From a virus, in the IMG/VR virus record IMGVR_UViG_3300033233_000033, positions 1-64,000 of that record: a stretch of DNA of 64,000 bases; one strand, 5' to 3'. Below, piece by piece: positions 42,677-63,989 of the stretch. Position 1 is the first letter of the stretch. Every line of letters begins with the position of its first letter. The notes beneath the pieces are model-generated. The model ran no database searches and was not told where the DNA came from. It saw only the letters and a list, made by a program, of their open reading frames with translations. The translations under genes and the position numbers were made by a program.

Positions 42677-43144
42677 CTATAACGCTTTCACGGTATAGTT
42701 TTGTACAGCTGGTCCGTTGTACGTTTCTTTCACTCCAGATGCTTTCAACCATTCGTAATCATACGCTCTAGTACCAGCTGAAATTTCAGCAAATCCTACG
42801 TAAGCTTGCGATGGGTAAACAATCTCACCGTCACGATCTTTACGATCTTCAGATGATACAATCTCGAAGTTCTGGTGGATTGCAATCTCACCTTCAGCTA
42901 CACCCTCAGTAGTATAAGAACTTGCACCTTCGATCGACATTTTGAAGTACTCTCTTAATGGCAATTTGATTAAACCATTAGGACCTTCACACAATAGTTG
43001 ATCGTTGAATACATCGTCTTTACCTTGTACAGTACCTGTCATGATCTCCATGATCTGTAACTTGTCTCCAGCATTAAGCTTTACACTTTTAATACTAGTT
43101 GCAGGTGTTTGTGCAAATGAACGATTTTTTTGTAACTTTAACAT
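42677..43144 (-). CDS. Accessory protein, first of three paralogues, 155 aa
   Basis: The start at 43144 follows an A-rich leader; an upstream frame to 43240 passes a GC-rich hairpin and is unlikely. The core (D-Q-L-L-C-E-G-P-N-G-L-I-K-L-P-L-x-E-Y-F near residue 60, F-E-I-V near 100, V-Y-P-x-x-A-Y near 115, then Y-x-V-x-x-(L/I)) is repeated in the 44630 gene and partly in the 46494 gene. Beta-rich; no enzymatic motif. Confidence 0.72.
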   Translation of the reverse strand: MLKLQKNRSFAQTPATSIKSVKLNAGDKLQIMEIMTGTVQGKDDVFNDQLLCEGPNGLIKLPLREYFKMSIEGASSYTTEGVAEGEIAIHQNFEIVSSEDRKDRDGEIVYPSQAYVGFAEISAGTRAYDYEWLKASGVKETYNGPAVQNYTVKAL

Positions 43145-44481: not shown

Positions 44482-44633
44482 AACTTTGTTATTTTTATTT
44501 TGTTTTTAACTATTGTGGCTCTGTAACCACTATCTAATTTACTATTCACATGGGCACAGAATTCCCATGCTGTTTCACAATACCTAGTGAACGTCTGTCC
44601 ACTAGGTAGTTTTACTTGATAATACTTACTCAT
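44475..44633 (-). CDS. Small hypothetical protein, 52 aa
   Basis: Start at ATG 44633 (M-S-K-Y-Y-Q), overlapping the upstream stop (ATGA); a longer frame to 44675 lies inside the upstream gene. Beta-like start K-L-P-S-G-Q-T-F. Not recognised. Confidence 0.55.
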   Translation of the reverse strand: MSKYYQVKLPSGQTFTRYCETAWEFCAHVNSKLDSGYRATIVKNKIKITKLC

Positions 44634-45076
44634 ATTGTTCTTACAGAGTAATTTTTTAAGCAACCATAAGTCCAATCTGTGTTTAAACCAGAATCTTTAA
44701 GCTCTTGGAACTCATAAGTGTCCTCCTCAGGTTCCTCAAACATGTAACCATTGTAGGCTGCATGAGGATAAATAATGTCCCCATTTAAATCTGTACGATC
44801 TTTGATATCTACAACCTCAAATTGAGTGTGTATCTCTACGTTGCCTTCTTCGTCTAAATCAAATAAACGATCATTTATGAAATGCAGTCTGAAATACTCG
44901 TTTACCGATAAACGTAAAATACCTCCTTGGTGCTCGCAGATTAATTGGTCTGCAGGCCTACCATTGTATTCACCTATCATATAATCTCGCACTTTGATCA
45001 CAGTTCCTACTGTAATTGTACCTTGAACATTAGCCATTTGAGCATATGCTCTTACTTTTTTAACTGTTAGTTTCAT
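44630..45076 (-). CDS. Accessory protein, second of three paralogues, 148 aa
   Basis: Shares with the 42677 gene the core D-Q-L-I-C-E-H-x-G-G-I-L-R-L-x-x-x-E-Y-F-R-L near residue 47, I-H-x-x-F-E-V-V near 90 and I-I-Y-P-x-A-A-Y-N-G near 108, and ends N-Y-S-V-R-T-I (versus N-Y-T-V-K-A-L). Probably arose by duplication; function unknown. Confidence 0.72.
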   Translation of the reverse strand: MKLTVKKVRAYAQMANVQGTITVGTVIKVRDYMIGEYNGRPADQLICEHQGGILRLSVNEYFRLHFINDRLFDLDEEGNVEIHTQFEVVDIKDRTDLNGDIIYPHAAYNGYMFEEPEEDTYEFQELKDSGLNTDWTYGCLKNYSVRTI

Positions 45077-49668: not shown

Positions 49669-50160
49669 ATGGCATTACTATACACATATCAAAAAGGAGG
49701 ATTACTATACAAGCACCCTGTAATTTACGTGTCTAAAAATACAGAGCGTAGTTATTACAGCCCTGTAGAAAAAGCTATGCATTTATCTGAAAATGATGCA
49801 AAAAATAAAGAAGTCCTAGCCCACGAGTATATACATTATTTACAAGATATATCTGGGGATATGCATGTTCCGCAAGGAGGGCCAGTAAAAGTTCCCACTA
49901 TTCCTATGGCAGATGAAGCTTCAGCTTACTATTACAACCGTAGAGGTATGGAAGTTCAAGATCGTATAAATTATATTAAGGGTTTACCTACTGAATTTAA
50001 ATTTGTACCTGAAGATGTGATCTATGATAGAGAAGTAGATGGTATGATGTATAGTGAGCCTAATACTATTGAAGGGCAAGCCCAACACGCGCAAAAAAAT
50101 GTATCAGAAAATAATCCTATGTTTAAGGAATTTTACAATACTTTTATAAAACGTAAATAA
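49669..50160 (+). CDS. Zincin-like metallopeptidase with double tag, 163 aa
   Basis: Residues 1-15 read as the tag twice over: M-A-L-L-Y-T-Y-Q-K-G-G-L-L-Y-K. Near residue 55 the sequence L-A-H-E-Y-I-H-Y-L-Q-D has the HExxH zinc motif of metallopeptidases. It could be a virion-processing or cell-wall-digesting protease. The third zinc ligand is not obvious. Its place at the head of the tagged gene series makes it a candidate for processing tagged proteins, an inference. Confidence 0.75.
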   Translation: MALLYTYQKGGLLYKHPVIYVSKNTERSYYSPVEKAMHLSENDAKNKEVLAHEYIHYLQDISGDMHVPQGGPVKVPTIPMADEASAYYYNRRGMEVQDRINYIKGLPTEFKFVPEDVIYDREVDGMMYSEPNTIEGQAQHAQKNVSENNPMFKEFYNTFIKRK

Positions 50161-50161
50161 T

Positions 50162-50830
50162 ATGCTATTATACAAATACAAAGACGGGGATAAGTTAAAG
50201 GAGGAAAAAAATGTATTGACTTCTGAGGAATTCTTGGCTATAAAAGCAAAAGAAGAGCAACCTTCTATTGTAAGTAGAAAAAAAGTAAATATGTTTCCTA
50301 CAGGGGTAGCTCCTTACCAAGGCAGTAAGACTTATAGTTACGGATTTAGTACGCCTGGAGGCAATGCAAGTGGAGTAGGTTATAATGTAAATGATAAATT
50401 GGATTTAGGTCTACTTACTATGGAATCTAGTGGTGAGGGAGATCCCGACCAACCTTGGCAATTACCTCTACACAAACAATATATGTTTATGCCTAGTGCA
50501 TCTTATAAATTGCCTGGTAAAAGCGGTAGTATAGGTTTAAATAAGTTGGCTTTTTTGAATGAAGGGGCTCCTAATAGCTTTTATAATTTTAGTTTACCAG
50601 ATACATCTGTTGTATATTCTAACAATTTCAATAAAAAAATTAACGATAATCTTTCTTTGGGCGGTAATGGCTCAATTGCTATTAGTGATAAAAACAGAAT
50701 GTATAATGGCTCTTTAAATGCTGATTTAGTATTTAAAAAATTAGGGTTAGAAGGTTCCGTATTTGTTAGTAAAAGAAATGAAGATAAACCTTTTGTAGGA
50801 GTAGAAGGTAAAATAAAATATAATTTTTAG
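50162..50830 (+). CDS. Tagged protein with beta-barrel-like pattern, 222 aa
   Basis: N-terminal tag M-L-L-Y-K-Y-K-D-G-D-K-L. From about residue 60 the sequence alternates small and hydrophobic residues with many Gly/Asn turns (G-F-S-T-P-G-G-N-A-S-G-V-G-Y, L-S-L-G-G-N-G-S-I-A-I) and ends in K-I-K-Y-N-F, a terminal Phe as in outer-membrane barrels. No signal peptide. A virion-carried barrel that reaches the host outer membrane is an inference. Confidence 0.65.
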   Translation: MLLYKYKDGDKLKEEKNVLTSEEFLAIKAKEEQPSIVSRKKVNMFPTGVAPYQGSKTYSYGFSTPGGNASGVGYNVNDKLDLGLLTMESSGEGDPDQPWQLPLHKQYMFMPSASYKLPGKSGSIGLNKLAFLNEGAPNSFYNFSLPDTSVVYSNNFNKKINDNLSLGGNGSIAISDKNRMYNGSLNADLVFKKLGLEGSVFVSKRNEDKPFVGVEGKIKYNF

Positions 50831-50833
50831 AGT

Positions 50834-51559
50834 ATGTTGCTATACAAATACCAAAAAGGAAATAAATTAACTGGTTCTACAGATGGTTTTAAAAAGCGTC
50901 TTATGAAAAGGTATCCAGGTATGCAAGGTGTATATGGAGAAAAAGGAGAGAATTTAAATATTATAAAAGATCCTACCTACGACGCAGCTGCTCATGGTTT
51001 TGGAAATATTGAATTTATGTTCCCTGGCCAAGATGTTGTAAGATATTCTGATGATTTTCAATATGTTAACCCTACACCTGATGTATATACAAGTGTATAC
51101 AATCCTAAGGGAGCTAATAAAGGAGATGTATTTTTAGATATGATGCATGGTATGCGTGATGATGAAGGTTATCAAAAATTATTAGGTAATTTTGTTGCAG
51201 CTACTAAAAAAGGTAGAGGTAAAGATATGGATCATTGGTATAACGAAGATGCAAAAAGAAATCCAAATTTTGTAATGGATGGTAGAGAATCTTGGGATAA
51301 TAATTTTGTAGACGGAATTTTAAGAGCTGAACTAGCTAATAAAACTTTTGGTAGAAGAGCCCATGGAGCTAAAGATTATAAGTTGGAGAGATCAGGGTCT
51401 ACAGATGAGATGCGGGAAGCTGCAAAAGACATAAAAAAATATTTAAAAACTAAACAACCAAAAACATCTAGTGAATTACCAGCTCACCTAAAAGAATATT
51501 CAGAATTACCTACAGATCAAATACGTGGTCTGAAAAAAGGTGGAGTATTATATAAATAA
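50834..51559 (+). CDS. Tagged protein with N- and C-terminal tags, 241 aa
   Basis: Starts M-L-L-Y-K-Y-Q-K-G-N-K-L and ends K-K-G-G-V-L-Y-K. The middle holds a helical region with D-H-W-Y-N-E-D-A near residue 135 and F-G-R-R-A-H-G-A near 175, where His/Asp/Arg residues could form an active site, but no family is recognised. One-base overlap with the following gene. Confidence 0.65.
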   Translation: MLLYKYQKGNKLTGSTDGFKKRLMKRYPGMQGVYGEKGENLNIIKDPTYDAAAHGFGNIEFMFPGQDVVRYSDDFQYVNPTPDVYTSVYNPKGANKGDVFLDMMHGMRDDEGYQKLLGNFVAATKKGRGKDMDHWYNEDAKRNPNFVMDGRESWDNNFVDGILRAELANKTFGRRAHGAKDYKLERSGSTDEMREAAKDIKKYLKTKQPKTSSELPAHLKEYSELPTDQIRGLKKGGVLYK

Positions 51560-51816
51560 TGTATACAATATATTGCATATCATCAGTAGCTACTAACTTT
51601 TTCTACCTGAATGCGGCGGAAGATTATGAAGCGTGTGTAAGTATGCATAATAAAATGCTCTTAACTAATAAACACCCTATAAGAGATCTACAAAAAATTT
51701 ACAATGCTCATGGTGCACATGATATATACTATACACCTTTAGATGATACAATCATGGCCAAAAATAAAGATAGTATGGTATTAGCGTACCGCGCGGCTAT
51801 GAGTCGGGGAAATTAA
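51559..51816 (+). CDS. Untagged small late protein, 85 aa
   Basis: Small alpha/beta protein with the end A-Y-R-A-A-M-S-R-G-N. It has no tag, unlike its neighbours, and is not recognised. Its start overlaps the stop of the preceding gene (TAATG). Confidence 0.6.
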   Translation: MYTIYCISSVATNFFYLNAAEDYEACVSMHNKMLLTNKHPIRDLQKIYNAHGAHDIYYTPLDDTIMAKNKDSMVLAYRAAMSRGN

Positions 51817-51875
51817 TTTCCCTTCCACTTACAAAACATTTTGATAACCTTTGGGAATTAATAACCCAGAAAGTC

Positions 51876-52244
51876 ATGATTTTATATAAATATCAAAACG
51901 GAGACACGCTTACCGTTAGGAAATTTCCTACACCACCTGCTTCATCCATAGGAGTTGGGATTAATACATTAGGCAATGCAGCCCATCTAGCTTCTATAGC
52001 TGAAGAAAGAGCAAAAGCAAGAGCAAAAAAAGATTTATATTCTGCTCGTAATTTAAGAGTAGCAGCACCAGCACCAAATACAGCTGTGTCTATAGCTGAT
52101 CAAAATGCAATGATGAATAAAGCTTTGTCTAATGATGCAGATAATTTACGAGGTTATGCTGGAACACAAAATAATGCAATGCCTGCCCGTCATCCTAATT
52201 ATTATTCATCAGATGCTATTATGAATATTTTAAAAAGCAAATAA
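51876..52244 (+). CDS. Tagged small protein, 122 aa
   Basis: Starts M-I-L-Y-K-Y-Q-N-G-D-T-L, then a flexible Ala/Pro/Asn-rich body (A-P-A-P-N-T-A, G-Y-A-G-T-Q-N). Low complexity suggests a disordered cargo or linker protein. Function unknown. Confidence 0.65.
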   Translation: MILYKYQNGDTLTVRKFPTPPASSIGVGINTLGNAAHLASIAEERAKARAKKDLYSARNLRVAAPAPNTAVSIADQNAMMNKALSNDADNLRGYAGTQNNAMPARHPNYYSSDAIMNILKSK

Positions 52245-52258
52245 AAAAAATAAATACT

Positions 52259-52420
52259 ATGTTATTATACAGTAAAAAACCTAGCAAAGCTGTTAAGAAG
52301 GCAGCAAAGTTAGCATCTAGTGAAAAACAAACTTACACTGATACTTACTCAGATCGTTTAGCAAAATTGGCTGCTTATAATCCTGGACGTAAAGGCTTAG
52401 AAGATTACATTAAAAAATAA
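52259..52420 (+). CDS. Small tagged-type protein, 53 aa
   Basis: Frame from ATG 52259 to TAA 52420. Begins M-L-L-Y-S-K-K-P-S-K-A-V, a degenerate tag, with a Lys/Ala-rich helix and D-Y-I-K-K end. Too short for most gene calls, but it fits the spacing between two tagged genes. Confidence 0.6.
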   Translation: MLLYSKKPSKAVKKAAKLASSEKQTYTDTYSDRLAKLAAYNPGRKGLEDYIKK

Positions 52421-52425
52421 GCACT

Positions 52426-53178
52426 ATGCAAGTTAGTAGTAGATACACACAAAAATTTGGTAAAGGTAAATCTTTAAAACCTAAGGCTTTAAAGTACCAA
52501 AAAGGAGCAACGCTTCAAGCTGGTGCCGGAGTACGAGGATTAAATCTTGAGTATACAACTCCCAGTCGTAAAGTTGATGACGATAGTTGGAGCTCAAAAT
52601 ATGGTTTAACTATCCCCATGTCTAAAGACCAAAAATTTGCTGCTTCTGCTACTGGAATGTGGGGAGGCCAAGGTGCAGGAGTTAAAGGCATAGGTGAATT
52701 ATCTTATATTGAAGGTCAAGGTTTAAAAGGTCGTATTGATGCAGGATATACAATGCAACTTGGTAAAGATAAATTACGCACAGGAAAAGGGAAATTACAA
52801 GTAACACCTTATGTAGGCGCACAACCAAATCTTAATGCTTTTGCTGATGAATTTCTAGAAAAAGACGTAGATAGTGAATTAGGTAGTAGAGATTATAATA
52901 ATAATAAACGCGGAGATCTTCACGGAGGTTTAAAAATTGAAGGCGAATATAAACCTTCAAAATATCCTTTGTACCTTTATGGGAAAGGTCAAGCTGAAAT
53001 CTCTACTAAAGGGCCTCAAGAAGACAACCACGGAGAGATACGTCACGGTTCTTTATCTGACCCAAATATTAATTTTAATGCAGAAGCCGGTATAAGATAC
53101 AAACTTGGTGAAAAAACTGAACGAGGCAGAATTAAAAAACGTTTTGCTGACGGCGGAATTTTACTATACAAAAAATAA
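52426..53178 (+). CDS. Tagged beta-barrel-like protein, 250 aa
   Basis: Internal tag-like L-K-Y-Q-K-G-A-T-L near residue 22 and C-terminal D-G-G-I-L-L-Y-K-K. The middle shows strand-turn repeats typical of porin-like barrels (V-T-P-Y-V-G-A-Q-P, L-K-I-E-G-E-Y, F-N-A-E-A-G-I-R-Y). No signal peptide. Similar in style to the 50162 and 53185 proteins. Confidence 0.62.
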   Translation: MQVSSRYTQKFGKGKSLKPKALKYQKGATLQAGAGVRGLNLEYTTPSRKVDDDSWSSKYGLTIPMSKDQKFAASATGMWGGQGAGVKGIGELSYIEGQGLKGRIDAGYTMQLGKDKLRTGKGKLQVTPYVGAQPNLNAFADEFLEKDVDSELGSRDYNNNKRGDLHGGLKIEGEYKPSKYPLYLYGKGQAEISTKGPQEDNHGEIRHGSLSDPNINFNAEAGIRYKLGEKTERGRIKKRFADGGILLYKK

Positions 53179-53184
53179 AATACT

Positions 53185-53952
53185 ATGGGCAATATAAAAG
53201 GAATATTAAGTACTAATGTAGATCAAACAGGTAATCTTACAACTCCTAGTATACAATATACTAGCCCTAGTTGGAAAATGGCTGGCCATCAAGGTGGTAA
53301 AGCAGGCCAATATACTTTTACAGGTAATTTAGGATACAATGACAAAGGCTTAAGTGCTGGGATTGGTCTTACAAATGCAGGAAAAGTAAACAAATTTATA
53401 TCTGATGAAGTAAATACAAACCTTACTTATAATGGTAACCAAGGTGCTGCACTTAGTGCTAAGGCAGGTTTAAATTTCAATGTGCTTAAATCACCTATGA
53501 AGCGCGCTGGAGATACTAGTTTAAGTATTAGTCCTTATTTAGGAATGACAGCTACTAGTAGATCTATTGCTGAAGGTGGTGGTCACAATTTAAATAACCA
53601 ATATACTCCAAGTGGGCAAACTAGAAGTTTAGTAGAAACAGGAGGAGATGTTAAATTTAAGACAATGCTGTCTAAAAATTTAAGTTTAGGGGCTCAAGCA
53701 GGTTTAGGAATTTCTGGCACAGGCTTTACTGGTACTGGGGATGATATGGTAAGAAATGCTGGAGATTATGGCACAAATTTAAGAGTTATGCCTAATGCTA
53801 GTGTAAGTTTAAATTATAACCTTGCTGGGGTAAAAAACCTTTTATACAAAAAACCTTCACCGTCAAATTCAAGACCAAGACCACAAGGCATTCCTGAATC
53901 TACAAAAGATCAAGCTGGAACAACAATTACACCACGATCTAGACCTTTCTAA
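53185..53952 (+). CDS. Beta-barrel-like protein with internal tag, 255 aa
   Basis: Repeated alternating strands with Gly turns (G-N-L-G-Y-N-D-K-G-L-S-A-G-I-G-L, A-G-L-N-F-N-V, L-S-I-S-P-Y-L-G-M) suggest a barrel of about 200 residues. A tag-like N-L-L-Y-K-K occurs near residue 217 followed by a Pro/Ser/Arg-rich disordered tail. Role unknown; likely a virion component. Confidence 0.6.
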   Translation: MGNIKGILSTNVDQTGNLTTPSIQYTSPSWKMAGHQGGKAGQYTFTGNLGYNDKGLSAGIGLTNAGKVNKFISDEVNTNLTYNGNQGAALSAKAGLNFNVLKSPMKRAGDTSLSISPYLGMTATSRSIAEGGGHNLNNQYTPSGQTRSLVETGGDVKFKTMLSKNLSLGAQAGLGISGTGFTGTGDDMVRNAGDYGTNLRVMPNASVSLNYNLAGVKNLLYKKPSPSNSRPRPQGIPESTKDQAGTTITPRSRPF

Positions 53953-53953
53953 T

Positions 53954-54610
53954 ATGGATGCAAAACAAGTTTTAAATAAATTGCGTAAGCATTTAGGGGA
54001 ATATTCTCACGGGAATTTCCCTACTACTGCGCCTTTATCTTTTCAAGATGGAGGAGAAGTTGTAATAAGTGCAGCTGATAGAATGAATTCTTTAGTGCAA
54101 AACCAAAAATTTAAAGAAAGCTTCGCAGAAAGAACTAAAAATGTTAATGAGTCTTTTAAAAAAATGCTTCCTGAAGAGGTCAAAAAAATTGCAGGTCAAA
54201 AAGCAGTCAAAGCGTTTAATGAAAAATTTAAACCAGGGCCTTTATATTTACCAAAAACTCTAGAAAGTAATAGAAGGGGAGGTATGTTATTATATAAAAA
54301 AGGCGGGACACTTAAATCTAGAATAGAATGCCATAACCCAAAATGTAATCATGATTGGGATAGAAAAGATGGTGGAGATGATATGTATATTTGCCATGAA
54401 TGTGGTACAGACAATACAAAGTTTTACGGGAAAGGCGGATCTATCCATATAGATAAAAATAAAAGAGGTACCTTTACAGCAGCAGCTACTAAACACAATA
54501 AAAGTGTGCAAGGATTTGCTAAACAAGTTTTAGCTAATAAAGAAAATTATAGTCCTGCTATGGTTAAAAAAGCTAATTTTGCGCGCAACGCAAGTAAATG
54601 GAAACATTGA
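53954..54610 (+). CDS. Tagged zinc-ribbon protein with phage 'GTFTAAA' C-terminal motif, 218 aa
   Basis: Tag R-G-G-M-L-L-Y-K-K-G-G near residue 113, then a zinc ribbon (C-x4-C near 130, C-x2-C near 148) and the conserved block G-T-F-T-A-A-A-T-K-H-N-K-S-V-Q near 173 through V-L-A-N-K...M-V-K-K-A-N-F-A-R-N-A at the end. I recall the last block from many Bacteroidetes phage proteins as a C-terminal motif of unknown function. The gene ends TGA-TAA in tandem. Confidence 0.72.
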   Translation: MDAKQVLNKLRKHLGEYSHGNFPTTAPLSFQDGGEVVISAADRMNSLVQNQKFKESFAERTKNVNESFKKMLPEEVKKIAGQKAVKAFNEKFKPGPLYLPKTLESNRRGGMLLYKKGGTLKSRIECHNPKCNHDWDRKDGGDDMYICHECGTDNTKFYGKGGSIHIDKNKRGTFTAAATKHNKSVQGFAKQVLANKENYSPAMVKKANFARNASKWKH

Positions 54611-54614
54611 TAAT

Positions 54615-54800
54615 ATGGATTTAGACGATTTACACGACATGGAAGATACTTTTGAAGTATTTTCTGATGAAAAGAAAGAGCTGAAAACGGCTCAAATTGA
54701 AAATGAAAAAATTGAAAATAACGGATTAACCTCTGCAAAACGTATTACACCTAGTAATGATGTAGATGTAGATAGTAGATGGAGTAAGTTTCAAATGTAA
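54615..54800 (+). CDS. Small acidic helical protein, 61 aa
   Basis: ATG at 54615 follows the preceding stops; an upstream in-frame ATG at 54579 lies inside the previous gene. Asp/Glu-rich (M-D-L-D-D-L-H-D-M-E-D), then helix and D-V-D-V-D-S-R-W end. No tag. Possible scaffold or chaperone for tagged proteins, an inference. Confidence 0.62.
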   Translation: MDLDDLHDMEDTFEVFSDEKKELKTAQIENEKIENNGLTSAKRITPSNDVDVDSRWSKFQM

Positions 54801-54805
54801 ATTTT

Positions 54806-56308
54806 ATGATTTTAACTGACTATAATAAGCCTATTAAGCCAAGACCAATGAATAGTGGTACTATGACTTATAAACCTGTTCTAACGGATATTGAAAGAAG
54901 AGCAATAAACGACGACCCTAATAGATTTTCTGGTGATATATTTATAGGAAATGCAAAAGAATGCGCGGGAGATGCTTGTAAAAATTTAGCCCCTGTAGTT
55001 GGTTTAGCTGGTAGAAAAAATATTTACCAAATTCTTGCTGAAAATGAAAAAGCTGGTAAATTTCAAAATGTATCTAGAGATATATTTGGTGAGGGCCTTA
55101 CTAGTTCTTGGCACAGCGCAGGAATTTTTACAGACGCAGGAGCTGCAAATATTTTGTATAATGCAAAAGTAAATAAACCTGAAGAATTAAACAATGCTTT
55201 GAGTAGAGCCAATGTTGGGTCTGTAGTATTGTTAGGTACTGATATTCCAGCTTTACAAAGAAACTCTGAAGGTTATTCATCTAAAAAAGGATTTTTTCCG
55301 TCTAACCATACAGTTATGGTTTACGGTTATAAGCCTACTGGTGAACTATTATTTATGGATGGTTATGACAAACAAATTTATGACATCAATGATTTAAATA
55401 ATCGTTGGAGCGGTAAATATAAAATACAAACTATATATACACCTAAAGAATATGTAGGCTTAAATAAAGGCTATATGGAGGATGTGTATAATAATAAATT
55501 AATTTCAAGCTCAAAGGCTTTAAGTTTAGATGATAATAAACCAGTAAAAGCAGATGATAAAATTTATTATAATTCTGCTAAGTACTTTAAAAACTTAGAA
55601 GCTACAGGTAAAGAATTTCATAAAGGGGACATGGCTGTTTTCTTTAGATCACTACATGATCACGCTCCAGAAATAGCAAAAGACTTATATTTAAATAATA
55701 ATGACTATACTAGATTAGCTAACTTAGCTGCCTCTATTGCTATAAAAGAAACTAAAGGTGGTAAAAGCACACATGGATTTTTTAATGAAATTGCTGAAGC
55801 TCATGGTGATAGTAAAGGTTTAACCCAAATTAAGTGGGAAGCTTTATCTCCAGAAATACAAAGCGTATTATATAAGAAATTTGCTATTGCAAGTGATTAT
55901 GATTTACGTGTAAGCCCAGAAAAATCTGCTATTGCAACTATGTATCATCTTGGTGAATTAATAAACCAAGTTAATTCCAATTACGAAAAAGGCGTAGATA
56001 AGAAAACTTATATTGATAGTCGTACACGTGGATTAACAGAAGTAACAAAAAGAAAATTAAGAGGCCAAAAAGCAGATTGGAATGTAGAGGCCTATACTAC
56101 TGAGGGTAATGCTCCTTTAAGTATTGAACAAAAATTATTATATGGTTGGGGAGGTTTACACCGTTTAAAAACTGGTGACGCTCAAGGTAAAAATGAATAT
56201 ATAAAAGATGTATTGCATAGTTACAAAAACTTAAACTTAGGTAAGCCAGAAACACTTATTAGTGTTGTTAAGAAAGGTAAAGGTATAATTTATAAAAAGA
56301 AAAAATAA
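54806..56308 (+). CDS. Putative bifunctional virion enzyme: cysteine-peptidase-like and lysozyme-like, 500 aa
   Basis: N-terminal half: possible Cys in C-A-G-D-A-C near residue 50, then S-N-H-T-V-M-V-Y-G-Y near 170 and L-F-M-D-G-Y near 187, the Cys-His-Asp order of papain-like/C39 peptidases. C-terminal half: I-A-I-K-E-T-K-G-G near 310 with G-L-T-Q-I-K-W near 335, the catalytic Glu and G-(L)-T-Q-I pattern of lytic transglycosylases/lysozymes. Ends K-G-I-I-Y-K-K-K-K, a weak C-terminal tag. Likely cuts peptide cross-links and glycan strands during genome entry. Confidence 0.68.
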   Translation: MILTDYNKPIKPRPMNSGTMTYKPVLTDIERRAINDDPNRFSGDIFIGNAKECAGDACKNLAPVVGLAGRKNIYQILAENEKAGKFQNVSRDIFGEGLTSSWHSAGIFTDAGAANILYNAKVNKPEELNNALSRANVGSVVLLGTDIPALQRNSEGYSSKKGFFPSNHTVMVYGYKPTGELLFMDGYDKQIYDINDLNNRWSGKYKIQTIYTPKEYVGLNKGYMEDVYNNKLISSSKALSLDDNKPVKADDKIYYNSAKYFKNLEATGKEFHKGDMAVFFRSLHDHAPEIAKDLYLNNNDYTRLANLAASIAIKETKGGKSTHGFFNEIAEAHGDSKGLTQIKWEALSPEIQSVLYKKFAIASDYDLRVSPEKSAIATMYHLGELINQVNSNYEKGVDKKTYIDSRTRGLTEVTKRKLRGQKADWNVEAYTTEGNAPLSIEQKLLYGWGGLHRLKTGDAQGKNEYIKDVLHSYKNLNLGKPETLISVVKKGKGIIYKKKK

Positions 56309-56309
56309 A

Positions 56310-57089
56310 ATGATTTTACGCAAATATCAATCTGGCGGATTAGCGTTCAGCGAAGAACCTATGACAACTACTCAATTTCACAGAGCTAAAAATGGGGAAT
56401 TAACAGTTAGAACTCGCTCTATGGGTGGACCTGAAATTATTACTGTTAAAGATAAAAAAGGAAATGTCAGAGTTAAAACTATTGATGATGATAAAGAAAC
56501 TATAGGTTACTGGGATAATAAAAGTAAACCTGAATCAAAAATATTGTATAAAAAAGAAGATGACGGCTTTATTAATCTTATTGATACTAGAACTGTGTTA
56601 AGAACTACTGGTAATCCTTTAGTAGAAAATGAAACAAAAGACGGGAAGTATAAAAAAGAGCACGTTGTAGGAGTTATTAAAGCTGCAAAGAAATATAATG
56701 TTTCTCCAAAATTAGCACTAGCTGTAGCTTTACAAGAAACAGGTTTAGGTAATAGAGCCCCTGAAAATATTGGTCAAGTCACTAACTATGACCCAAACAA
56801 AAGCACTTACGATAATTTAGCTTATTCTCTTAAACAACATCTAGCGGAAGCAGATAAATTAAAGTACAAAGAAAAAGAATACCGTTTGCAAGTGTATAAT
56901 GGTATGGGTATTGCTGGTAGAGGAAAACTGGGTAAACATGCTTATGGTATGGACGTGCCAGAAGAAGGCTTCCACATGGGTAAAAATCCTTTATATGGTA
57001 AACAAGTTTACGACTTATTTGACAATGTTATTGATAAGAACCCTGAATTAATCAAATTAATTCGCGATATTTATAGTGAAAAGGTTTAA
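56310..57089 (+). CDS. Tagged lysozyme/transglycosylase-like protein, 259 aa
   Basis: Starts with the tag M-I-L-R-K-Y-Q-S-G-G-L-A. From residue 113 V-S-P-K-L-A-L-A-V-A-L-Q-E-T-G-L-G has the catalytic Glu context of SLT/lysozyme-like enzymes (L-A-x-A-x-x-x-Q-E-T/S). The C-terminal Y-N-G-M-G-I region fits the substrate cleft. It sits next to the bifunctional enzyme, suggesting an entry apparatus; localisation in the virion is inferred from the tag. Confidence 0.7.
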   Translation: MILRKYQSGGLAFSEEPMTTTQFHRAKNGELTVRTRSMGGPEIITVKDKKGNVRVKTIDDDKETIGYWDNKSKPESKILYKKEDDGFINLIDTRTVLRTTGNPLVENETKDGKYKKEHVVGVIKAAKKYNVSPKLALAVALQETGLGNRAPENIGQVTNYDPNKSTYDNLAYSLKQHLAEADKLKYKEKEYRLQVYNGMGIAGRGKLGKHAYGMDVPEEGFHMGKNPLYGKQVYDLFDNVIDKNPELIKLIRDIYSEKV

Positions 57090-57091
57090 TT

Positions 57092-59149
57092 ATGCTTTTA
57101 AGAAAATACCAACAAGGCGATAAATTTAAAAAACTAGAGCTTCCAAATAGTAAAAGTATTTCTAGTGAAACTACTAATAAAGCTGCAATAGCTCCTAAAC
57201 AAGCTGTGCAAGCTCAAAGAGAAGTTATTTATAGAAACACTCCTGCATATAAAGCTAAAAAACTAAAAGAAGAAAAAGATAAGAAAGCAGCTCAAGTTGC
57301 TTTTGAAAAAGAACGTTGGGATAAATATAATAAAGCGTCTTTAACAGACAAAATTGTAGATAGAACACAGGCTGCTTTTGTTAGCCCTTTATTGATGGCT
57401 TCTAATTTGATTTCTGGTAATCAAGCATATATACCAGGTATGGCACACGCTCTTAGTGATCCTACACACCCAGATTATGGCAAATATTTAAAAGCTGTAC
57501 ATCAAGAAGAAGGTACTATAGAACCTAATGATTTTTTTAATGGTATAAATCCATTTTATCAAGGTACTGCTATACGTAAAAAAGTAAATAATGGTGATTA
57601 CGTGGGGGCAGGTTTAGATGCAGCCCTTACTATTTTTGGGGCTAAAACAGTTAATCCTAATGCAGGAGCAGGTACCGCAAGATTATTAACAAAAGCAGGT
57701 AATAATCCTGTTATGCGTGGTTATAATAATATAGCAACAGGTAATTCTTTTATACCTTACGCTTGGAAAAGCCCAGCTGTAGGAAAGACTGAAGCAAGCA
57801 CTAGACAATTATTTGAAAAAGTTTTAAATAGCAAAGAAATTACTGATGCTGAAAGAGCGGTTTTAATAGATTACCAACAAAACAGTAGGCTTTATACCGG
57901 TAGAGCAGATAATTTAGACCTGGCAAAAAGAGAACTAATTAACAATATACTTAAAAAACATTCTTTAGAAGAAATAACAGACAATAATGTATTTTTAACT
58001 AGAAGAGTTAAAGCCTCAAACAAAGATGTCTTTCCACTAGAAGATAATAAATTATTGCTTGAAGATAGACCAACATCTTTTACAGTAGGGGTAGGACAAC
58101 GCGGCCATGCAAGCGCATCAGACAGAATTGTAATACCTAATAAATACACTAAAGCATTAAATAAAAATTTTATAAAACAATCTTACGAACCAGTTTCAGA
58201 AGAGACTTTAAATTTAATGGGAAAACCAAAAAACACGTACGAAACAAACGTACAAGAATTTGCCAAATTTATACATACTAATAAAAATCTACAATCTGAA
58301 AAAGAATTAATTGGTAGTGGTTTAAATTTAAAGAAAATAGGTAAAGTTAAAAATGATATAGGAGGCTATGATTATATAATGAAGCCTGTAGTTAACAAAA
58401 AAGTTAGCGTACCTGAGCCAGTGCTTATACCACCAGTAGTTAATGAGTTACCAGCTCCACCAGAAGTATTACATTTAGATCTCACAAGAAGACCAGGTAT
58501 TGATTTAACAAGAAATGCAGACAGACCTAGAAAAGTAAAGGCTGCAAAATTCCGAGATGAGACAGCATATGGAGATCTTACAGTGGTTAAGACTGGTAAA
58601 GACAAAGATAATATAAAACATTTTATAGTTAAAAGAGGAGATAATTTTATCGAGGCAGAAAGAAATGCAGACGGAACTTTTAAATTTCACAATAAATGGG
58701 TAAATACTGAAAACCCTAAAAGAGGAATGATAGAAGCAGGAAGAGCAATGAAATTATTAGACGAGCATTTACCAGCACACCCAGTAATACATGAAACTGT
58801 TTCTTTCTCACCAGATTCTTATTCTAATATCTTGACTTTAATGAAAGATAAGAAAAAATGGGAATATACCGTGGTGGGCTCTGTGCCTGTAAATAACAGC
58901 GCTGTTAATTCTACAATAACTCATGGTAGAATGAGTACAGAAGGGCCAACTCATTTCTTTAATACAATGGAAGACGCTAAAAAAGTAGCAGAAGAATTTA
59001 ATGCACTATTAAAAAGAAAAGGATATCAAAGTGAATTACATAAAGCAAAAGCAATTGAAACTGCTACAGGCTTTCAAGTAACAGTTCCTAATTTTAAGCT
59101 AAGAAGAAAATATTATTTAGGCGGACTACTTTACATTAAAAACAAATAG
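57092..59149 (+). CDS. Large tagged protein, paralogue of the next gene, 685 aa
   Basis: Tag M-L-L-R-K-Y-Q-Q-G-D-K-F at the start and G-G-L-L-Y-I-K-N-K at the end. Residues 75-185 (A-S-L-T-D-K-I-V-D-R-T, L-L-M-A-S-N-L-I-S-G-N-Q-A-Y-I-P-G-M, then D-P-x-x-P-x-Y-x-K-Y-L-K) align with the 59151 protein; the remainder differs. I recall this domain as widespread in Bacteroidetes phage proteins of unknown function. A Pro-rich linker near 440 leads to a distinct C-terminal domain. Confidence 0.7.
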   Translation: MLLRKYQQGDKFKKLELPNSKSISSETTNKAAIAPKQAVQAQREVIYRNTPAYKAKKLKEEKDKKAAQVAFEKERWDKYNKASLTDKIVDRTQAAFVSPLLMASNLISGNQAYIPGMAHALSDPTHPDYGKYLKAVHQEEGTIEPNDFFNGINPFYQGTAIRKKVNNGDYVGAGLDAALTIFGAKTVNPNAGAGTARLLTKAGNNPVMRGYNNIATGNSFIPYAWKSPAVGKTEASTRQLFEKVLNSKEITDAERAVLIDYQQNSRLYTGRADNLDLAKRELINNILKKHSLEEITDNNVFLTRRVKASNKDVFPLEDNKLLLEDRPTSFTVGVGQRGHASASDRIVIPNKYTKALNKNFIKQSYEPVSEETLNLMGKPKNTYETNVQEFAKFIHTNKNLQSEKELIGSGLNLKKIGKVKNDIGGYDYIMKPVVNKKVSVPEPVLIPPVVNELPAPPEVLHLDLTRRPGIDLTRNADRPRKVKAAKFRDETAYGDLTVVKTGKDKDNIKHFIVKRGDNFIEAERNADGTFKFHNKWVNTENPKRGMIEAGRAMKLLDEHLPAHPVIHETVSFSPDSYSNILTLMKDKKKWEYTVVGSVPVNNSAVNSTITHGRMSTEGPTHFFNTMEDAKKVAEEFNALLKRKGYQSELHKAKAIETATGFQVTVPNFKLRRKYYLGGLLYIKNK

Positions 59150-59150
59150 T

Positions 59151-60797
59151 ATGATTTTAAGAAAATATCAAAAAGGCAAAACCTTAAACATACCATTACC
59201 TGGTAAATCTATTGTTTCAGATAATACTAGAGCAGTAGCTCCTGGTATAGAAATGCATAAAAATAAAGACCGCCAATTTGAAACTAAAAAATCAGAATTA
59301 ATTAATAAAGCTTATCAACAATTACAAGCAGGCGCTATAACTGAAAACCAATATGAACAAGTACTTGGTAACAATAAAATGGCAACTAATAGACTATCTA
59401 GCGACAAATTAATAAATACTTCTGAAAAAGTAGTAAAAAAAGGAGACGTAAAATATAAAAAACAAGAAGCTCTTGCTGCAGAAAAGTTTAAAAAACAACT
59501 TTGGAATGAATATAAAAATGCATCATTAGCTGATAAATTAGTAGACAGAACTAAAGCAATTGTAACAGAGCCTTTATTAATGGCCTCAAACCTTATAACT
59601 GGTAACCAGGCTTATATTCCTGGTATGGCTGATGCTTTAAATGATCCTAATTCTCCTAATTATGATAAATATTTAAAATATACAAATCAACCTAAAGGGG
59701 GTATAACTACAAACAATTTGTTTAAATTAGTTAATCCTGGTGCGTGGGGTTATCATGCTGGCACAGAAGTTAATAAAGGAAATTACATGGCTGGTTATGG
59801 AGAAATGCTTGAAAATTCTGCCGGTTTAATTCTTGGTGGCCCTGCACTTACAGGGCTTAATGGAGTAAAAGCTATTAATACAGCCAAAAAATTACCACAA
59901 CAATTTTTTTATAATGCTATAGACCCAGTAGGTTATGGGGTTAAGCAAAAAATAATACAAGCGCCAGTTAATTTAACTAGAAATTTAATTTACCCTGAAT
60001 TAAGACCAGAAAGAATTGCAGGATTACTTAATAAACCTGGCCAACCTAGAATAGGCATGAATCGACTTGATGCATTTAGAACTGGTTTAGGTTTAGAACA
60101 AAAATACGGCACTTTTATAAAGGATGGCTCTAAATATAGTATTAGAGATTTTAATATGACCCCAGATGAAAAGCAATATTATATATCAGAAATTGAAGCT
60201 TTTGATGCTTCTAAAAATCTAAGCGGTGAAGAATTAAAAGAAAAATTAAAAGAAGTATCTAGGATCAATGCATTAAACACAAGTCATAATAGACATTTTA
60301 TTGAAAAAACAGGCCAACCATTAGTAAATGAGCCAGTATCAAATTATAATCCGTGGGAGCAAAAAAGAGCTGTTGAAATAAGTAAAGATCCAAATTATGA
60401 TTTTTCTATTTATAGCGCAGATAATCATGGTATAATGGGTGGTTATAGAATGGATGTAAAAAGAAATTTAGATGGTACTTACGAATTTAAAGCAGCAGAT
60501 GTTTGGGATTTGCACCCAACAGCAAAATCAAGCACTATAAATAAAAGTCAACTCGAGCTTGAAAAACGTAATTTATTAAAACGTAAATTAGAAAATGTAG
60601 AATTTTTAAAATTAATGGGAGGCAAACCTTTTGAAATAGAAAATAAATTTTCTCATAAAGTATTTAATTATAAAGAGCCAATGAGTACTTTTAATACAAA
60701 AGACCCTATAGAAAAATACAAAGAAATTTTTGAAAGGATGACTATTCCTAAAAATATAAATTACAATTCTTTTGTAATTAATAAAAAACAAAAATAA
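59151..60797 (+). CDS. Large tagged protein, paralogue of 57092-59149, 548 aa
   Basis: Tag M-I-L-R-K-Y-Q-K-G-K-T-L. Residues 120-230 contain the shared domain (A-S-L-A-D-K-L-V-D-R-T, L-L-M-A-S-N-L-I-T-G-N-Q-A-Y-I-P-G-M, N-P-x-x-x-x-x-H-A-G). After it the sequences diverge; the C-terminal domain has D-N-H-G-I-M-G-G-Y near 425. A conserved-module-plus-variable-domain design. No clear C-terminal tag. Confidence 0.7.
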   Translation: MILRKYQKGKTLNIPLPGKSIVSDNTRAVAPGIEMHKNKDRQFETKKSELINKAYQQLQAGAITENQYEQVLGNNKMATNRLSSDKLINTSEKVVKKGDVKYKKQEALAAEKFKKQLWNEYKNASLADKLVDRTKAIVTEPLLMASNLITGNQAYIPGMADALNDPNSPNYDKYLKYTNQPKGGITTNNLFKLVNPGAWGYHAGTEVNKGNYMAGYGEMLENSAGLILGGPALTGLNGVKAINTAKKLPQQFFYNAIDPVGYGVKQKIIQAPVNLTRNLIYPELRPERIAGLLNKPGQPRIGMNRLDAFRTGLGLEQKYGTFIKDGSKYSIRDFNMTPDEKQYYISEIEAFDASKNLSGEELKEKLKEVSRINALNTSHNRHFIEKTGQPLVNEPVSNYNPWEQKRAVEISKDPNYDFSIYSADNHGIMGGYRMDVKRNLDGTYEFKAADVWDLHPTAKSSTINKSQLELEKRNLLKRKLENVEFLKLMGGKPFEIENKFSHKVFNYKEPMSTFNTKDPIEKYKEIFERMTIPKNINYNSFVINKKQK

Positions 60798-61099: not shown

Positions 61100-61702
61100 A
61101 TGCTAAAATTTCAAGTATACAATAATAAAGTATGCATTGATCCTAGCATAGTTCTACTTGAAGAATTTTCTAATATCCTTGCGTACGGTAAGAAAGAAAA
61201 AAATGAAGACTTAGCAAATCGAATGTTGCTATACGTTTTCTTTTGTTGTGATCTTACTGAAGATAATTTCATGCGTGATTTAGATTACAGGCTTAAACCT
61301 GAGCAAGCCATGGCCAGAGCTTTTTCTGGAACTATAAAGAAATTTGATGATACACAAAAAGATCTTGTAGATGCTGCTATAGATGCCTATAACTTTTTTA
61401 ACGAAACCTCTGCTGAAAGAGCTGTACTAGCCATTGATAAAAAAATTGATGAAGCTAGAACTATAATGGAAACTACAGATATTGAAATTATTCGTCATGT
61501 CAAAGAAAGTGGTGAAGTTAGTTTTGTATCTAATGAAACCATATTATTTAAGTTAGCAGAAAATATAGGTAAGCTTATGACTTTAAAATTATCTGTAGCT
61601 GCTGCTGCTAAAAAAATGGAAAATTCTGGGCGTGTGCGTGGTGGTAAAGGATCTTCTCTTTTAGAGCGAGGTGGATTAATACAAAAACCAGACGATGAGT
61701 AG
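61100..61702 (+). CDS. Putative small terminase subunit or terminase-associated protein, 200 aa
   Basis: Helical protein (F-L-L-L-L-F-Y at the start, long helices from 60 to 160) with a basic C terminus (G-R-V-R-G-G-K-G). Its stop overlaps the terminase start by 8 bases. The small-terminase assignment is from position and helical, basic-ended character, not from a motif. Confidence 0.5.
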   Translation: MLKFQVYNNKVCIDPSIVLLEEFSNILAYGKKEKNEDLANRMLLYVFFCCDLTEDNFMRDLDYRLKPEQAMARAFSGTIKKFDDTQKDLVDAAIDAYNFFNETSAERAVLAIDKKIDEARTIMETTDIEIIRHVKESGEVSFVSNETILFKLAENIGKLMTLKLSVAAAAKKMENSGRVRGGKGSSLLERGGLIQKPDDE

Positions 61703-63989
61703 TATTTCTAGTAAACCAAAATATAAGTTAAAAAAGGTTAACACTGCTAAGATACCAACTCTTATTGGTGTTGAAAACAAATATAAACCTTTTTCTTTAG
61801 ATTTTTTAAAGACTGATGAACAAGGGCGTATATGGAATGGAGAATTTGAGGTTACTAATGCGCCTGAAAAATTACACGGTGTAGTTTTAGGTGATGAAGA
61901 AATTAAACTTTCAGATTACCTTGTTTATAGGCCTATACCTAAAGAGCTTATAGCTTGGCGAGAAATTCCTAATTACCATCCTGATAGTTTAGACATGGAA
62001 GAATGGTATGCACCATTATTAAACTTTTGCTATCGCGGAGTTTGGGTAGATAGTGAATATTATAATCCTTTCTTTGTTTATTGGTTGAATATTTTTGTAT
62101 TCCCAGTTCCTATTTACGACTCTGAAGGAAAACCAACAGAAGATTTTACTACTTCTCACCCTCAATATTGTAATATTGACAGATACTTTTTTGATTACAG
62201 CTGGAAAGCTCATTTATGTAACAAAGATGTATCTATAATGGGAGGTCGTGGTGTCGGTAAATCTTATATGATCAACAACGTTTTAGATCGTGAATTTAGA
62301 TTATACCCAGGCAGTCATACGCTGGTGTCTTCTACTAATGAGGTAACTACAGATGAGGCTTGGCGTAAAATAGAAGAAGGCTTGGGTGCTATAGAACGTT
62401 TACACAGAGCGTTAAAACTTAAACTTATTGACGATTCTGCTGAAGTAAAATACTCAGGTGAAACTGTAGATCTTCCAGACGGAACTAAAGAAGAACGTGG
62501 TCATTTATCTAAACTTGAAAAAATTATATACGGTAAAAACTCAGGTAAAACAAGGGGTAAACGTCCTAGTAAACAATTAATAGAAGAGTTTGCAGCATTT
62601 CCTCCATCACACCAAAAAGGATCTCTTGGCGCTTGTAAAAGAGAAAGCCGTGGTTCTTGGTATGTAATGGGTAGTCTTAAGAAATGCCAAGTATATTATT
62701 CTGGTACAGGGGGTACTGTAGAAAATGACGAAGCTGAAGGGATATTTTGTAACCCTGACGCACACGAAATTTTACCTACATATGATTTTGGTGTTGCTAC
62801 TGGTTTCTTTTGCCCTACGCATATCAAACGAGCAGGTACTTGGGAAGTAACAGGTTGCCCTGATATACCTACAGAAACGCAAGAAGTAATGCAAGAGAGA
62901 GAAGCTGCTAAAGCCGATCCTACTGTTTACTTAGGTTTACTGCAAGAGTACCCAATGACTATCAAAGAAGTATTTATCCGTAAAGGTTCTAATATTTTTG
63001 ATCAAGATAAAATTGCAACTCAGCGTATTAATTTACAAATGAATCCAGATATTCCTAAACCAGAGAAAGGTTTTCTTAAATGGAAAAGAGCTGAAAATGG
63101 AAAAATTATAGGTGTAGATTGGGACCCTAGTCCACTGGGAGATATACATATATTAGAGCACCCACACTGGTTAACAGAAGGAGCTTTAGAAAACGAAAAA
63201 CAACCTCTGCCTAATTTGTACGTAGCCGGAGCCGATAGTATTGACCAAGGTACAGGAGATTCTTCTCATGCAACAAACAGTATAAAAGGTTCAGAATTAG
63301 CTATACTTATAAAGAAACGTATATTAGATAAAGGTTATTTTAGAACAACTTCTAATTTGTATGTTGCAAGTTATAAGAAAAGATCTCACGATGTCAGAAC
63401 AGACTGGGATAATGCTTTAAAACTAGCTTACTACTTTAATGCAGAGGTAAATATAGAGTATACTAAAATTGGTATTGTTGGACATTTCCGTGACCATGGT
63501 TTTTACCATCTATTAAAGAAAAGACCTACTATTAATTTACAAAACGCAGACCCAAATAAACAAACTCACCTTATAGGTACTACTGCTGGTGGGCCTATCA
63601 TAGATCACCAGGATCAGAAAATAAAAGCGTATATAGATGATTTCTATGACACAATTTATTTCTCAGACCTATTAGAGCAATTACAAGATTACAATCGTGA
63701 GGATCGTACTAAATTTGACTTTGTTATTGCTATGGGGTTATGTGAACTTTCTGATGAAGATTTAATGGGAGCTATAGCAAAACCTAGAGAAGCTGCAACT
63801 GAGCAATTTCAATTATTTGGTTATTATACTGATCCAGAAACGGGCCACAAAAAGTATGGAGTTATACCAAATAAATCTAATGCCCAAAAAGAATTAGATC
63901 AATCAATTGCCAAATCATTTAATGCGCATGGTGGAGTAAGGTGGATAGATATGAGCGATCCAAAAAACCCTCAATATATTTATGATTAA
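61695..63989 (+). CDS. terL: Terminase large subunit
   Basis: Packaging motor that cuts and translocates phage DNA. ATPase: Walker A G-G-R-G-V-G-K-S near residue 188, Walker B-like Q-L-I-E-E-F-A near 295. Nuclease: first acidic site A-G-A-D-S-I-D near 510 and the C-terminal D-D-F-Y-D-T near 650, with further Asp/Glu after. At 764 aa it is at the long end of the family. The stop at 63987 is followed by a few noncoding bases at the window end. Confidence 0.93.
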   Translation: MSSISSKPKYKLKKVNTAKIPTLIGVENKYKPFSLDFLKTDEQGRIWNGEFEVTNAPEKLHGVVLGDEEIKLSDYLVYRPIPKELIAWREIPNYHPDSLDMEEWYAPLLNFCYRGVWVDSEYYNPFFVYWLNIFVFPVPIYDSEGKPTEDFTTSHPQYCNIDRYFFDYSWKAHLCNKDVSIMGGRGVGKSYMINNVLDREFRLYPGSHTLVSSTNEVTTDEAWRKIEEGLGAIERLHRALKLKLIDDSAEVKYSGETVDLPDGTKEERGHLSKLEKIIYGKNSGKTRGKRPSKQLIEEFAAFPPSHQKGSLGACKRESRGSWYVMGSLKKCQVYYSGTGGTVENDEAEGIFCNPDAHEILPTYDFGVATGFFCPTHIKRAGTWEVTGCPDIPTETQEVMQEREAAKADPTVYLGLLQEYPMTIKEVFIRKGSNIFDQDKIATQRINLQMNPDIPKPEKGFLKWKRAENGKIIGVDWDPSPLGDIHILEHPHWLTEGALENEKQPLPNLYVAGADSIDQGTGDSSHATNSIKGSELAILIKKRILDKGYFRTTSNLYVASYKKRSHDVRTDWDNALKLAYYFNAEVNIEYTKIGIVGHFRDHGFYHLLKKRPTINLQNADPNKQTHLIGTTAGGPIIDHQDQKIKAYIDDFYDTIYFSDLLEQLQDYNREDRTKFDFVIAMGLCELSDEDLMGAIAKPREAATEQFQLFGYYTDPETGHKKYGVIPNKSNAQKELDQSIAKSFNAHGGVRWIDMSDPKNPQYIYD

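Follow-up and report, generated by a model that had tools for sequence, protein, structure and literature searches.

A glycine-jointed terminal peptide shared by unrelated late proteins, a candidate loading motif for head-interior proteins in a crAss-like phage clade

The window analyzed here, a stretch of 64,000 nucleotides, comes from a virus record of 69,350 bases (IMG/VR IMGVR_UViG_3300033233_000033) that stops soon after the terminase gene. Its late arm contains a series of genes whose products share a short peptide, all copies being on the plus strand. Seven late-arm proteins begin with the consensus M-φ-L-[YRK]-K-Y-Q-x-G, as read from the window ORFs, and GG-φ-L-Y-K stands at the C-terminal end or inside at least four late proteins. 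The series opens with a 163 aa HExxH protein (49669-50160), which starts with an N-terminal tag (N-tag) followed by a tandem core (MALLYTYQKGGLLYK, 49669-49713). It continues with a beta-rich-looking protein of 222 aa that ends in KIKYNF (50162-50830; N-tag MLLYKYKDGDKL, 50162-50197), a 241 aa protein tagged at both ends (50834-51559; N-tag MLLYKYQKGNKL, 50834-50869; C-terminal tag, or C-tag, LKKGGVLYK, 51530-51556), and the product of 51876-52244 (N-tag MILYKYQNGDTL, 51876-51911). The protein encoded at 52426-53178 ends in the C-tag RFADGGILLYKK (53140-53175, including FADGGILLYKK), and also carries a displaced N-proximal tag, LKYQKGATL, at residues 22-30 (52489-52515). Inside 53185-53952 lies a weak, bare core LLYKK without GG (53839-53853), and inside 53954-54610 lie the internal motif GGMLLYKKGGTL and a double tag, RRGGMLLYKKGGTL (54272-54313), followed by the KGTF module (GKGGSIHIDKNKRGTF...KWKH, 54428-54607) that is common to the Crassvirales C1-position protein at up to 82% identity. 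A 61 aa protein, MDLDDLHDMED... (54615-54800), is a possible adaptor with an N-terminal DDLH motif like that of the scaffold-like protein of relatives. Downstream, the product of 54806-56308 ends in the C-tag KKGKGIIYKKKK (56270-56305, including KGKGIIYKKKK), which is aligned in its homologues. The protein at 56310-57089, with a weak Glucosaminidase/SLT match, starts with MILRKYQSGGLAF (56310-56348), that at 57092-59149 is tagged at its N-terminus (MLLRKYQQGDKF, 57092-57127) and its C-terminus (YYLGGLLYIKNK, 59111-59146), and that at 59151-60797 begins with MILRKYQKGKTL (59151-59186). The first-pass annotation had placed all seven N-tags, the C-tags of 50834, 52426 and 57092, and the tandem doubling in the first gene correctly. 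The internal copy that it reported in 53954 held up, that in 53185 came down to the bare core, and the copies at the C-terminus of 54806 and at residues 22-30 of 52426, together with two further GG motifs in 53954, had been missed.

In the internal copies (KKGG-VLLKKSQ-KGG-KL, NGG-RLLKYQT-GNK, RKGG-ILYIKKYQN-G, and EKGG-SLLHKYQK-G), the full unit is GG-core-GG, where the core is [ILV]L[LYRK]xK[YK]Q; across all positions it reduces to the shorter [LI]-L-[YRK]-x-K, with the final [YK]-Q optional. The unit occurs as core-Q-x-G-G-body at the N-terminus, as body-G-G-core at the C-terminus, and as body-GG-core-GG-body internally, and the N-tag and C-tag may be read as the right and left halves, respectively, of this single unit. 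The glycine joint (G-[GDNK]) lies between the core and the protein body. In one relative, a metallopeptidase is linked to another region through precisely this kind of GG-core-GG unit (L009:7197-8933), and several internal copies are present in the protein at G002:32891 and in 53954. Within the N-tag, only the first of the two glycine positions is fixed; the next may hold G, D, N, K, E, T or V, a variability more in keeping with a turn or hinge than with the site of a strict protease. We infer that the glycine serves as a hinge.

The terminase of the window (61695-63989) shares 23-24% identity with those of PhicrAss001 and other Crassvirales (E to 3e-17), and the capsid protein of the relative L009 matches those of the Crassvirales cr114_1 and cr125_1 at E 3e-6. 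These similarities indicate a distant crAss-like phage or a member of a sister group. Genes in G001-G003 follow the order terminase, portal, capsid, tail, cargo, and giant genes, with proteins of 3,400-3,570 aa that lack a polymerase family match. Two terminase genes (L017:2465-5854 and L018:3-2492) contain a long in-frame, intein-like insertion (1,129 aa vs. about 760), and the early arm of the window carries a paralogous pair of small genes (42677-43144 and 44630-45076) with a homologue in L012.

Relatives were drawn from IMG/VR by terminase and capsid queries, and the larger part of G001-G004 and G006 was read. A position matrix derived from the tags of the seven window proteins was run on the late-strand ORFs of the other phages and matched 39 of 459 proteins. 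Shuffled sequences gave a mean of 0.83 (maximum 4 in 200 shuffles) and random internal positions 0.2, and no match occurred among 27 minus-strand ORFs. When the termini were trimmed before clustering, 46 tagged proteins fell into 23 unrelated body clusters. The N-tag was found on 47 of 474 proteins of variable families and on none of 295 proteins of 13 conserved families, among them terminase, portal, scaffold-like and capsid proteins (Fisher p 7e-11). Local DNA duplication had been named beforehand as the case that would refute a functional tag, and it was not borne out. Identical codons in the tags number 73, against 74.5 ± 8.2 expected from codon usage, and the DNA upstream of the tags is unrelated between genes. 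Since the codon likeness is no higher than codon usage predicts, the tags are not recent DNA copies, and recent duplication was ruled out as their source.

The strict N-tag DNA pattern was not enriched across the phage collection, giving 42 stretches where a scrambled control gave 65. Its matches were mostly chance, the genuine ones being mainly members of this clade, and the idea of an N-tag widespread in all phages was dropped; any wider reach of the motif therefore depends on looser GG-φ motifs. A scan of 2.9 million viral contigs for the DNA pattern GG-φ-L-Y-K-K-stop, which is blind to homology, found 33 stretches, 17 of them in open frames, while the scrambled control gave 12 stretches and none in open frames. 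After removal of lambda-type tape-measure-like proteins, most open-frame matches belong to this clade. The scan also recovered two divergent members, G010 and G011, that are absent from the terminase scan results; four proteins of G010, including a 1,127 aa HExxH protein, have GGILYKK-like C-terminal tags. The lambda-type tape-measure-like proteins (L207, L210, L212, L215, L221, L222, L224, L226, and L228-L230) end in PGGLLYKK. Tape-measure proteins are likewise ejected, and the identical string in this one unrelated family is probably a coincidence.

The tags of the relatives occupy several genomic places. As in the window, they are found in the block from the strand switch to the terminase, the cargo block, whose gene content is hypervariable between relatives. 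In some relatives they also occur in the interval between portal and capsid (L009:15300 and L012:13442-16841), and in near-complete relatives immediately before the giant late genes (tags LIKKYQTGG and KINKFQTGG). In G003, proteins of 105 aa (KHQMGG...FRKGGRL), 998 aa (MYRLIKKYQTGG), and 678 aa (IVKRQDGGVI) are followed by proteins of 3,404 and more than 3,569 aa; the corresponding position of PhicrAss001 holds gp45 (C1), gp46 (C2) and the polymerase genes. Members of the 678 aa family are about 20% identical overall, yet all keep the K, Q, G, and G of the tag. In the gut phage MT835470, whose capsid protein shows only 40% identity, a 1,554 aa protein carries MSQAIRKYQTGGK and a 610 aa protein MEIINKIQKLQGGGIP, with KYQTGG retained. 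Finally, the scaffold-like protein of G011 starts with MKVQKFQEGGLIDEDDLFSDD. Among the late genes read in relatives, no terminal tag is present on the giant polymerase-like proteins, which also have to be packed, and the tag is likewise missing from some cargo-block neighbours, namely patatin-like and DUF192 proteins.

The DUF192 protein (L180:11293-11949; Pfam E 3e-21) is encoded directly 3' of a glycine-zipper C1-like protein and is syntenic in G001, G002 and G004. The patatin-like phospholipases were detected in several cargo blocks (L007:4581-5492, L012:6225-7133, L013:5939-6856, L019:4025-4954, and L132:6983-7897); the L007 copy scores 191.6 bits against the NCBIfam model CBASS_lipase (cut-off 200), an unexpected resemblance of a phage protein to a CBASS effector. 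A second terminal motif, [LI][DE]DLHxD, is present at both ends of the scaffold-like protein that precedes the capsid gene (L004:17553-18668 and G002:39214-40458) and at the N-terminus of a conserved cargo-block protein of about 60 aa (window 54615-54800). In G004, NLWDN stands at the scaffold C-terminus and DIWGD in the small protein. Possibly the DDLH motif identifies an adaptor that links the scaffold to the cargo.

The HExxH motif of 49669 is clear. The first-pass labels of 52426 as barrel-like (Pfam OMP_b-brl, E 0.0023) and of 56310 as lysozyme-like (Glucosaminidase, E 0.005) correspond to matches below the curated cut-offs. Elsewhere, an SLT transglycosylase (L174:1972-2862, E 5e-17) and a phage lysozyme (L132:4179, E 1e-6) are among the tagged proteins. 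A kit of peptidases and murein hydrolases is expected for proteins ejected into a Gram-negative envelope. HExxH is present in 11 of 62 tagged proteins, belonging to several families, vs. 12 of 693 untagged ones, with 0.26 expected in shuffles; at the L006 locus, tags occur without any HExxH. The earlier suggestion that the HExxH protein 49669 is a dedicated tag protease is not favoured, because the motif occurs in several tagged families and is absent at the L006 locus. The 54806 protein and its homologues share a conserved set of C-x-G-D-A-C, H-T, and M-D, and could be cysteine peptidases. Several of the small beta-rich carriers end in aromatic-x-F/L like outer-membrane barrels (KYNF, KYRF, and RYRF), without a signal peptide. 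Small beta-rich proteins, mostly tagged, are encoded at 50162-50830, 52426-53178 and 53185-53952 of the window, at L013:903-1472 and L013:6890-7447, and at G001:63206-63952; if they are barrels, the head may carry outer-membrane proteins. Structure predictions were too poor for use, with a pLDDT of 35 for 52426 from its single sequence and of 45 for 54806 from three sequences, the latter without a Foldseek match below E 0.29, so that both the barrel and the cysteine-peptidase readings stay unconfirmed.

In PhicrAss001, C1 (gp45) is an established cargo protein, detected in virions by mass spectrometry, and cryo-EM places it in the portal and tail (PMC10172136). The C-terminal 60 residues of 53954, its KGTF module, share 82% identity with a portion of the C1-position protein of cr128_1 and 63% with that of Rudgehvirus jaberico, and the module is also recognizable in DAC15 and in PhicrAss001 gp45. 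The crassvirus C1 profile matches 53954 at E 7e-25 and a tagged protein of a relative (G001:60148) at E 1e-17. Suoliviridae encode the module in a small gene that lies between those for portal and capsid; one Crevaviridae phage has it joined to a lysozyme-annotated protein. Most copies follow [YF]xxGGxI or a close variant. The cr128_1 C1-position protein starts with MNKRYQTGYIK and ends with SKGGYLTIKKKK. A GG-φ within the last 26 residues is found in six of seven C1-position proteins vs. 0.94 expected, a count that is suggestive only, since these sequences are related. GG motifs inside PhicrAss001 gp45 are not enriched (three vs. 1.2 expected from composition, p 0.12). The 218 aa protein 53954 contains neither the glycine-zipper segment nor the portal-binding domain of full-length C1, and in relatives the glycine-zipper protein is encoded by a separate gene from the KGTF module. 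The glycine-zipper protein (A4/A5; hhalign probability 85, E 6e-6, partly low complexity) and the KGTF module are the sole C1/C2 homologies found. The C1- and C2-position proteins of the clade were rejected as direct homologues of crassvirus C1 and C2, none being detected for A7/A6 or A8/A5, and its C2-position proteins have no detectable homology to crassvirus C2.

Taken together, the peptide is probably a short loading motif for head-interior (cargo) proteins in this crAss-like clade. An address label for packing into the virion, one of the functions suggested by the first-pass annotation, is the reading best supported by the sequences, through C1 homology and synteny, the lack of N-tags on conserved structural families, and a tagged scaffold-like protein. 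The core would dock on a partner lining the procapsid, which may be the scaffold, the portal or the portal-bound cargo protein C1, and the glycine would form a hinge between the docking core and the protein body. A tagged protein of any kind would then be enclosed in the head and later ejected into the host, allowing hypervariable envelope-digesting and effector proteins to be swapped with the loading machinery unchanged. We offer more tentatively, as a possibility short of an even chance, a fuller scheme in which a two-ended LYK-GG code, read by the scaffold, portal or C1, acts with a DDLH code on the scaffold-like protein and the 61 aa adaptor to pack and inject fast-changing peptidases, murein hydrolases and perhaps outer-membrane barrels. 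Loading may be followed by cutting, as in T4.

A different role for the same glycine is that of a processing site, at which a maturation or post-injection protease would cut between core and body, either as the sole function of the tag or after loading as in T4. The glycine does stand at the right position for such a cut, both ends of T4 Alt are cleaved off (PMC9026906), and zincin peptidases have been proposed to process the polyvalent proteins of phages (PMC5512222). HExxH is enriched among the tagged proteins. However, the second residue of the N-tag varies among G, D, N, K, E, T and V, unlike the sites of GG-specific proteases, and the PhicrAss001 structure paper nowhere mentions cleavage (PMC10172136). 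Together with the tagged yet HExxH-free L006 locus and the failure to recognize a prohead protease among the genes between portal and capsid, this makes processing an unlikely explanation. It is quite improbable that the tag is a self-association motif, its aromatic, basic and glycine residues gluing the cargo together and to C1 in one enclosed mass that needs no dedicated receptor. The composition of the tag resembles that of adhesive low-complexity segments, tags at both ends could cross-link, and the multiple internal copies in G002:32891 and 53954 would suit such a role, but most carriers have one or two copies at fixed terminal positions and in a strict residue order, which is more docking-like.

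Many carriers are murein hydrolases or peptidases and some resemble outer-membrane barrels, and Bacteroidota, the presumed host phylum, have C-terminal sorting signals. These points would suit a tag that acts after ejection, as a host-envelope, tail-passage, sorting or secretion signal in the recipient cell. We regard this as very improbable: no signal peptides lie beside the tag, which is found at either end and at internal junctions, and the tagged scaffold-like protein should stay in the producing cell. Hardly credible, and largely refuted, is the view that the shared ends are left over from duplicated genes or from a recombination cassette by which the middles of genes are exchanged. The hypervariable gene content of the cargo block would accord with it, but the codons of the tags are no more alike than expected from codon usage, the DNA upstream of them shows no relationship, and tags also occur far from this block, both in the portal-capsid interval and adjacent to the giant late genes.

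The loading reading matters because crAss-like phages, which rank with the commonest viruses in the human gut, load several MDa of protein beside their DNA. A recognizable tag would allow the cargo of uncultured phages to be listed from sequence alone, would make loading directly testable, and could offer a way to deliver proteins of choice into Bacteroidota. Searches of the open-access literature found no tag of this kind described for crAss-like phages.

Several known systems invite comparison. Polyvalent proteins are injected multidomain phage effectors with zincin peptidases (PMC5512222). The tagged proteins resemble them in being variable, putatively virion-linked and often of the HExxH type; however, polyvalent proteins are defined by their multidomain architecture, lack a shared terminal tag, and belong to domain families unmatched here. 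Maturation sites of the adenovirus and ASFV type need a strict di-glycine before the cut, unlike the N-tag with its variable second residue. The protein 53954 is like Crassvirales C1 (gp45) in its KGTF module of about 60 aa (63-82% identity), and C1-position proteins also have GG-φ ends, but 53954 is small and stand-alone, with a zinc ribbon and tags. In P1, an N-terminal DarB peptide alone can carry a reporter into the head (PMC9024508); the P1 Dar proteins share no common consensus, whereas that of the crAss-like clade is obvious and two-ended. The capsid targeting sequence (CTS) of T4 IPI-III and Alt is an N-terminal peptide of 10-19 aa on unrelated, variable, injected proteins of the head interior, and Alt is cleaved at its C-terminus as well (PMC9026906, PMC7411985). 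Like it, the tag is a short terminal peptide common to non-homologous late proteins, here of 23 body clusters. Unlike it, the tag is also C-terminal and internal and has a glycine joint; no sequence relationship between the two was found, no T4-type prohead protease or cleavage motif was recognized, and the phage is a crAss-like one. The tag, known from sequence alone, probably works like the T4 CTS and the P1 DarB signal by analogy, and is not classed as a member of the former, which is defined in part by carriers lying inside the head and by a peptide that suffices for packing. If it is indeed a loading tag, it would be an answer, arrived at independently, to the problem for which T4 uses its capsid targeting sequence.
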